The notes beneath the pieces were generated by a model that saw nothing but the letters and a program-made list of their open reading frames with translations, did no database searches and was not told the origin of the DNA. A stretch of 53,265 nt of DNA. Origin: Candidatus Cloacimonadota bacterium (GTDB lineage Bacteria; Cloacimonadota; Cloacimonadia; Cloacimonadales; TCS61). Both the position numbers and the translations under genes were made by a program. Below are positions 226 to 6,736 of the stretch, one piece after another. The stretch spans positions 1-53,265 of the forward strand of contig JAGYMQ010000118.1 in the NCBI GenBank assembly GCA_018400535.1, in the 5' to 3' direction. Within the stretch, counting starts at the first letter, position 1. Each line of letters opens with the position of its first letter.

Positions 226-479
226 GATTATTGACTATCAGGCGGCAGCCTGACGAGCTATGCTCGTTTGACTATTTGACTATTTATCCTGTTGAATAGA
301 CCTTTGGTCTTATGCGAAGCATATTCAACAGGATTTATACCGACGAAGTCGGGATCGAATTTTCAAAAACTTCGGAATGTTCAGCTTTGCTGATCTTCCG
401 AATGTTTGGAGTTAAAGTGAAAATAATAACATCCCGAAGATTTCCCTCTGGTTAAACATTCGGAAGTTAAAGGCATAAA
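226..479. other. Highly structured spacer between VR and avd (chain of mini-hairpins and a three-way junction)
   Basis: No gene is present. Inverted repeats read off directly are: TCAGGC/GCCTGA with GGCA loop (238-253); CGAGC/GCTCG with TAT loop (254-266); an 11-bp outer stem 286-296/324-334 enclosing AGACC-TTT-GGTCT (298-310) and TATGC-GAA-GCATA (311-323), a nearly perfect three-way junction; CCGAC-GAA-GTCGG (340-352); and TTCGGAA/TTCCGAA (371-377/396-402) enclosing TCAGC-TTT-GCTGA (381-393). TTGACTAT occurs three times (231-238, 268-275, 276-283) around the first two hairpins. TCCGAATGTTT (397-407) can also pair with 454-464. Hairpins just 3' of the VR are known to assist homing in the Bordetella phage DGR; the same role here is inference. 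Confidence 0.75.
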
Positions 480-5743: not shown

Positions 5744-6018
5744 TTTAAGAATACTGTATTATCATAAGGCTTGATATTCTGAGATTAAAATTATTATTAA
5801 TTTAAGATGATTTAGCGATAGAAAAGATAAATTTTTACTAGTTTTTGATGAACTGAAGATATGAGAGTGCCAAGCAAAGCTAATATAATCAAGTTGGACA
5901 ATCCAACCCAGACAAAGGCTAACCACCAGTTTGGAACTGAGACACGCATATAGTGAGGTAACAAATTATATGAAGCCGTGTGAAAGGTAGTTTATCAGCC
6001 GTAAGATAAGCTCTCCTC

Positions 6019-6060
6019 GTGAAATAAAATCGAAGATTTTAATGCGAAGCATTATTTCAC
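6019..6060. repeat. Compact three-way-junction element with GCGAAGC arm
   Basis: The sequence folds with no unpaired junction bases: outer stem GTGAAAT/ATTTCAC (6019-6025/6054-6060), arm AAAATC-GAA-GATTTT (6026-6040) and arm AATGC-GAA-GCATT (6041-6053). The second arm shares the 11-mer ATGCGAAGCAT with the junction at 286-334, in the same position within the fold, although the outer stems are unrelated. GCGAAGC is known as an exceptionally stable DNA mini-hairpin. Confidence 0.7.
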
Positions 6061-6736
6061 AGGGTGAAGGTGTTGAGCTCCGAAATATTCATTGTTGCAA
6101 TCGGGCTAAAGGTTCATTTTCTGTGAGCCGGTGTTGGTATATGCGAAACAGGATAGGTGTATTTCAAGTTTTAGCACACCCAAACGAGTGAAATAGAATG
6201 TGAGCCTATATCGACGAGCTGGATTCTAAGTCCACAGCGGGTAAACGAAAACGATTATATCGGAACTTGGGAGAACAATATTTTTCCATTCAGAAATTTC
6301 AGACAAGTTGAACAAAAGTAAGAATGCAGTATGTCAATATGGAAATCGGACTTACTTATAGTAGAGGTGTAAATGGGGTAATGACTATTGAGTTAGAATT
6401 ATATAACACTTGAGGAGAACAGCAATTTAATGCAAAGTGAAAGGATTAAATTAATTTCATACCCAGAGATGAAAGCTCTCTGTCTCAGGCATCTCTGCAT
6501 GTCATGGAAACTCTGTCGGAAAGATGCTATTTCAAGATTGCTTTATTAGTGTTTGAAGTTCAAAAAAGAAAGTTAGCAGCAAAAGATGACCTTTTCAACC
6601 AGATTTCTTGTCATGTGCTATCAGGATATTTCCGATATTGAGTTCAAATTCAATACTGATCTTCTTCAATCTGCGTAATCCGTTCAATCCGATAAATCTG
6701 TGGTTCAGACCCTCTTTCTTAACTGAAAAATCTTTT

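Follow-up and report, generated by a model that had tools for sequence, protein, structure and literature searches.

A dispersed family of small branched DNA palindromes in Cloacimonadota and related genomes, with one copy downstream of the variable repeat of a diversity-generating retroelement

Retrohoming of the BPP-1 diversity-generating retroelement (DGR) needs a hairpin or cruciform 3' of the variable repeat (VR), whose pairing is conserved while its sequence is not (PMC3240598). In phage DGRs, this hairpin lies 4–34 bp from the VR and is built from a GC-rich stem of 7–10 bp and a GRNA tetraloop (PMC3240598). Here, we analyzed a stretch of 53,265 nucleotides from a Candidatus Cloacimonadota bacterium (hereafter the window; all features described lie on its forward strand), in which one branched palindromic element is located 3' of a DGR VR (copy 1) and another is located elsewhere (copy 2). 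Copy 1 may represent a branched counterpart of the BPP-1 retrohoming hairpin/cruciform. We consider it likely that the two copies are members of a single dispersed family of small DNA palindromes of presumably non-autonomous mobility, with copy 1 recruited into the DGR target site and copy 2 being an ordinary dispersed member.

The DGR and the two palindromes of the window

Positions 1–2474 of the window form a DGR with VR, Avd, template repeat (TR), and reverse transcriptase. The 3' end of the target gene (1–225; Fib_succ_major domain, PF09603, E 8e-12) is cut by the contig start and carries the VR (27–223), which is 87% identical to the TR (1024–1220), with a TR adenine at all 26 differing positions. 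The accessory protein Avd (480–821) was assigned by PF22296 (bAvd, E 6e-17), and its NF033474 score of 62.7 bits is below the cut-off of 80. The reverse transcriptase (1236–2474; RVT_1, E 2e-18) shares 50–62% identity with reverse transcriptases at other TR/VR-bearing loci; its relatives come from Patescibacteria, Bacteroidota, and other groups, and TR/VR pairs were found at many of these loci by the same test. A preliminary description of this DNA had recognized the element that we call copy 1, whereas the adjoining DGR had gone unnoticed. A second VR-like gene end (G000:C63:19841–20032; loci L003 and L007) is 74% identical to the VR, and its mismatches relative to the TR are enriched at, yet not confined to, TR adenines. 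This gene end is followed by a small ORF, GIY-YIG-like by eye, and then by a TTGACTATTTGTCTATTTG tract; an ORF resembling it, again by eye, also lies 3' of the VR in a Peregrinibacteria DGR (L041).

Copy 1 spans positions 283–337, with a three-way-junction core at 286–334 (ATCCTGTTGAATAGACCTTTGGTCTTATGCGAAGCATATTCAACAGGAT). Its outer stem comprises 12 bp, its arms are AGACC-TTT-GGTCT and ATGC-GAA-GCAT, and a single junction base is unpaired. Copy 2 spans 6011–6067 (core 6019–6060, GTGAAATAAAATCGAAGATTTTAATGCGAAGCATTATTTCAC) and has a perfect outer stem of 7 bp, extendable past one mismatch; all of its junction bases are paired, and its arms are AAAATC-GAA-GATTTT and AATGC-GAA-GCATT. The design proposed in the preliminary description, an outer stem and two abutting triloop arms with almost no unpaired junction bases, was thus confirmed at both sites by folding and by a strict scan, in which copies 1 and 2 were the only triloop three-way junctions of the 53-kb window (mean of 0.175 per Markov-shuffled window). 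A scan with a stricter score gave no junction in 468 kb of shuffled sequence. The 11-mer ATGCGAAGCAT, shared by both second arms, was rejected as evidence for a family: it occurs three times in 2.6 Mb, near the chance expectation, and would not be evidence on its own because the third copy in the own genome (contig C27) has no three-way junction.

Copy 2 adjoins, or sits inside, the remnant of a group II intron of the D1D4-6 type (5898–6014; RF02005, 44.8 bits, E 3e-11), which slightly misses the gathering score of 49; no Rfam family reached its gathering score in the window. The 52 bases starting the intron region (window 5861–5911) are found again where contigs C135 and C136 end, which suggests that the assembly has collapsed an intron present in several copies. 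Searching plasmids for the copy 2 region yielded no match.

The palindrome family in related genomes

A homologue of copy 1 in another genus (G007:C40) was found by means of the GACTATTTGACTATTT tract pattern, i.e., with a query that carried no structure. It presents a VR-type end, the tract, and then ACCCGGTTGAATAGACCTTCGGTCTTATGCGAAGCATATTCAACTGGGT. Five sites differ between the two elements: in two stem pairs, both partners are exchanged (T-A to C-G and T-A to G·T), and the fifth site is a loop base. From this pair, we built a covariance model (R1), which gave matches in 10 of 147 genomes (E ≤ 1), including a set of eight copies in G022 and a cluster of three in G041. In the alignment of a twelve-member model (R2), nine pairs were changed on both sides, compared to at most three with partners slid by 1–3 columns, and 92.7% of cells were paired, compared to at most 46% when slid. 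Alignments collected by a covariance model lean towards the structure of that model, and the pattern-found pair constitutes the structure-free part of the evidence.

At E ≤ 0.001, R2 detected the family in at least 28 of the 147 related genomes: 11 in the own family (own genome included), two in the rest of the order, 14 in the wider class, and one among 23 genomes of other phyla. The sister family f10 (~55 genomes), which served as negative control, gave no match at this threshold with at most 150 candidates scored per genome. The same scoring limit applied throughout, so that copy counts are lower bounds. G119, G113, and G114 gave at least 63–74 strand matches each and, since a palindrome matches on both strands, hold ~30–37 elements each; all genomes are draft MAGs, some of them contaminated (8% in G119). 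These results bear out the earlier suggestion of a repeated structural family maintained by base pairing. It had also been stated that a lack of further copies in the genome would expose the shared 11-mer as a coincidence; the two window copies are indeed the only ones found in the own genome, but coincidence is refuted by the copies in relatives. We found no published description of the element in paper searches of the open-licence literature.

A reading in which copy 1 is the DGR's own target hairpin and copy 2 a group II intron helix, alike by chance through the stable GCGAAGC mini-hairpin, would account for the location of copy 1 3' of the VR and of copy 2 next to the intron fragment, and DNA hairpins of the GCGAAGC type are unusually stable. 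Nevertheless, we regard such a chance likeness as highly improbable: R2 detects both copies (77 bits for copy 1 and 58 bits for copy 2), copy 2 is nearly identical to the 54-nt units within an mtaB gene carried by G119 (contig C237), and dozens of copies are dispersed outside DGRs and introns, by which this explanation is already largely refuted.

The elements thus brought together by covariance are discrete palindromes that were inserted repeatedly, with conserved outer pairing and ends. Members are ~40–100 nt long and have the ends TTTACCCYGTKRAAT...ATTYMACRGGGTGAA, a 12-bp outer stem, and a variable interior. Each of the twelve outer pairs is formed in 49–59 of 59 distinct elements, compared to ~44% when slid. 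Across 40 flank-distinct elements, the ends are sharp, because the information content falls to near zero beyond TTTACCC...GGGTGAA. Two arms were present in 38 of the 59 elements and one arm in 21, and locus L137 has more than two; AAA, TTT, and GAA are the commonest triloops. It is unusual for a small mobile element to combine a fixed outer stem and fixed ends with varying arms. In G007 (e.g., C32:28608 and C7:66234), a 41-nt hairpin repeat, TTTTTAACCTGTGAAATC...TTTCACTGGGTTATTC, is present at least 15 times, with its flanks conserved, and is perhaps a related, perhaps a separate family.

Most elements are intergenic, with 43 of 45 examined sites not in an ORF. Both intragenic sites belong to one mtaB gene of G119 (TIGR01579, 395 bits, cut-off 357), which carries a single copy on contig C154 and a tandem array of four 54-nt copies on contig C237, in each case with preserved reading frame. 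The mtaB insertion has ACCCCGT at either end. The diagonal scan of the 40 flank-distinct elements revealed no fixed target-site duplication. Strong folding and intergenic location would also suit elements that act as RNA, either as terminators or as structured leaders. This is quite improbable in light of the sites themselves, as there is no T run 3' of the stem, 27 of ~37 classifiable sites have co-directional neighboring genes, compared to only six with convergent ones, and the copies in mtaB are in frame. Furthermore, the outer pair that varies most shows C·A (8) as commonly as T·G (4), unlike what would be left by selection on one RNA strand.

Copy 1 and VR-type gene ends

The core of copy 1 starts at position 286, 62 nt downstream of the VR end at 223. 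The intervening region includes 28 nt (239–266) that are missing in the G007 homologue, as seen by comparison with L089, and without which the spacing would be ~35 nt. By folding, this insert forms two small hairpins, TCAGGC-GGCA-GCCTGA (238–253, with a GRNA-type loop) and CGAGC-TAT-GCTCG. A TTTGACTA tract of 2.4 copies follows (267–285), which is common to other post-VR regions. Downstream of copy 1, folding and comparison identified the hairpin CCGAC-GAA-GTCGG and a TCGAATTTT-type tail (341–365); a hairpin and tail of this kind were found 3' of VRs in many other DGRs. Short-period tracts (TTCGTGTTAGTTCGTG, ACAGATTAACGCTGATG, and ATTTGTTATTTG) surround many elements of the family (L259–L264, L284–L289, and the G022 copies) and look like the post-VR TTTGACTA tract. 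Another short palindrome, distinct from the element, occupies positions 362–412; the genome has four more copies of this repeat at 85–91% identity (one each in C76 and C146 and two in C143).

The sublineage defined by the arms of copy 1 has three members in 147 genomes, which are also the three top R1 scores; those in G007 and G041 are nearly identical to copy 1. All of them lie 3' of VR-type gene ends (the window, G007:C40, and G041:C395) and in the same orientation relative to the gene; in G041:C395, three elements follow the gene end ...GYSVRCVRDVD*. The VR-like ends of G041 and G119 differ from the window TR at many non-A positions and are therefore VR homologues and not shown targets. R2 matched only four sites in 346 kb of DGR loci. 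Two of these sites are at VR ends: the weak matches in the Patescibacteria DGRs L041 and L059 (19 bits each) begin no more than ~10 nt from the VR end, and the copy in L059 folds as a three-way junction. No element follows the TR of the window, and there is no R2 match nearby. The reverse transcriptase of L059, from a Moranbacteria MAG (L059:3899–5395, 499 codons), contains an in-frame insertion of several dozen residues with a weak family-like palindrome, whose foot is of the same kind (CCCCGTTAGA...TCTAACGGGG). Among viral contigs, the GACTATTTGACTATTT and GGGATTNGACTATTTG patterns gave no DGR target or element in the folds and contexts printed, and two strict element patterns gave no match.

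Like the BPP-1 hairpin, copy 1 is an inverted repeat that lies 3' of a VR and its IMH-like end, and not after the TR, with conserved stem pairing and varying sequence. It also lies downstream of a VR whose differences from the TR are confined to adenines. In contrast, it is branched, with two triloop arms, its 12-bp outer stem is AT-rich instead of GC-rich and 7–10 bp long, it has no GRNA loop, its distance of 62 nt (~35 nt without the insert) compares with 4–34 bp, and it belongs to a dispersed family. From its position and sublineage, copy 1 probably belongs to the DGR target site, in the manner of the BPP-1 hairpin/cruciform. The hairpin at 238–253 with its GGCA loop is the better BPP-1-like match and lies closer to the VR; the working target could instead be this hairpin, or the conserved hairpin and TCGAATTTT tail at 341–365.

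At DGR targets, the element may have been recruited as, or may have landed in, the structure read by the retroelement. Its repeated place after VRs suggests a possible origin of DGR target cruciforms, and copy 1 could serve as a naturally occurring variant in tests of which target features the DGR machinery recognizes. A more far-reaching version, in which DGR targets and the palindrome family share one structure-reading machinery, seems unlikely to us; here, the element would supply ready-made target cruciforms, so that acquiring one would give a gene end DGR variability, or the DGR reverse transcriptase complex would spread the element.

Mobility and comparison with known repeats

The earlier guess of a small mobile or palindromic element gained support from the spread of the family, the compensatory changes, the sharp ends, and the in-gene insertions. 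We propose that the element moves as a non-autonomous unit via a folded single strand or a cruciform, and that the fold would be recognized by a hairpin-reading enzyme of the HUH/Y1 transposase type or similar. Hairpins of this sort are recognized by Y1 (HUH) transposases. Palindromes of the REP type, moved by a RAYT/IS200-like Y1 transposase, are a more specific version of this idea. The elements are small, palindromic, dispersed, and sometimes tandem, as REPs are, and the IS200-like tnpA genes of G119:C105 and G113:C188 have copies at their flanks, with one further tnpA near a copy in G119:C113. Yet, copies within the fetched flanks were found at only ~5 of 49 Y1_Tnp loci, a weak enrichment over a density that is itself a lower bound, and the interiors are much more variable than those of REPs. 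A GTAG or CGTC tag is present in none or one of 40 flank-distinct elements (at the feet GTAG 1, CTAC 1, CGTC 0, and GACG 0). We therefore consider the REP explanation doubtful, though the least improbable of the alternatives. The integron attC site was rejected by inspection, as the core boxes are in inverted order (GTTRRRY...RYYYAAC). Irrespective of how it moves, the family is countable and testable in uncultured bacteria.

Like REP/BIME sequences and the GTAG- or CGTC-tagged palindromes (PMC3733652), the family is small, dispersed, mostly intergenic with some intragenic members, and sometimes clustered, and some of its members lie near Y1 transposase genes. It differs in its larger size, its usual three-way junction, and its feet, TTTACCC/GGGTGAA without GTAG/CGTC tag, and the tag test on 40 flank-distinct elements led us to reject assignment to the GTAG or CGTC REPs (PMC3733652). 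Rickettsia palindromic elements (RPEs), compared here by description (general knowledge and PMC3733652), are found in frame inside protein genes and also between genes, and in-frame insertion into a protein gene is what we observed in G119 mtaB, with one and four copies. The hosts are unrelated, however, and our element is mostly intergenic and defined by an outer stem and variable arms. Finally, MITEs are short, like our element, and non-autonomous, as we propose for it, and the family shares with them imperfect terminal inverted repeats (TTTACCC/TTCACCC) and sharp ends, both of which were found here. As to the target-site duplication and parent insertion sequence of MITEs, the diagonal scan gave no fixed duplication, ACCCCGT is repeated around the mtaB insertion, and no parent insertion sequence was found.
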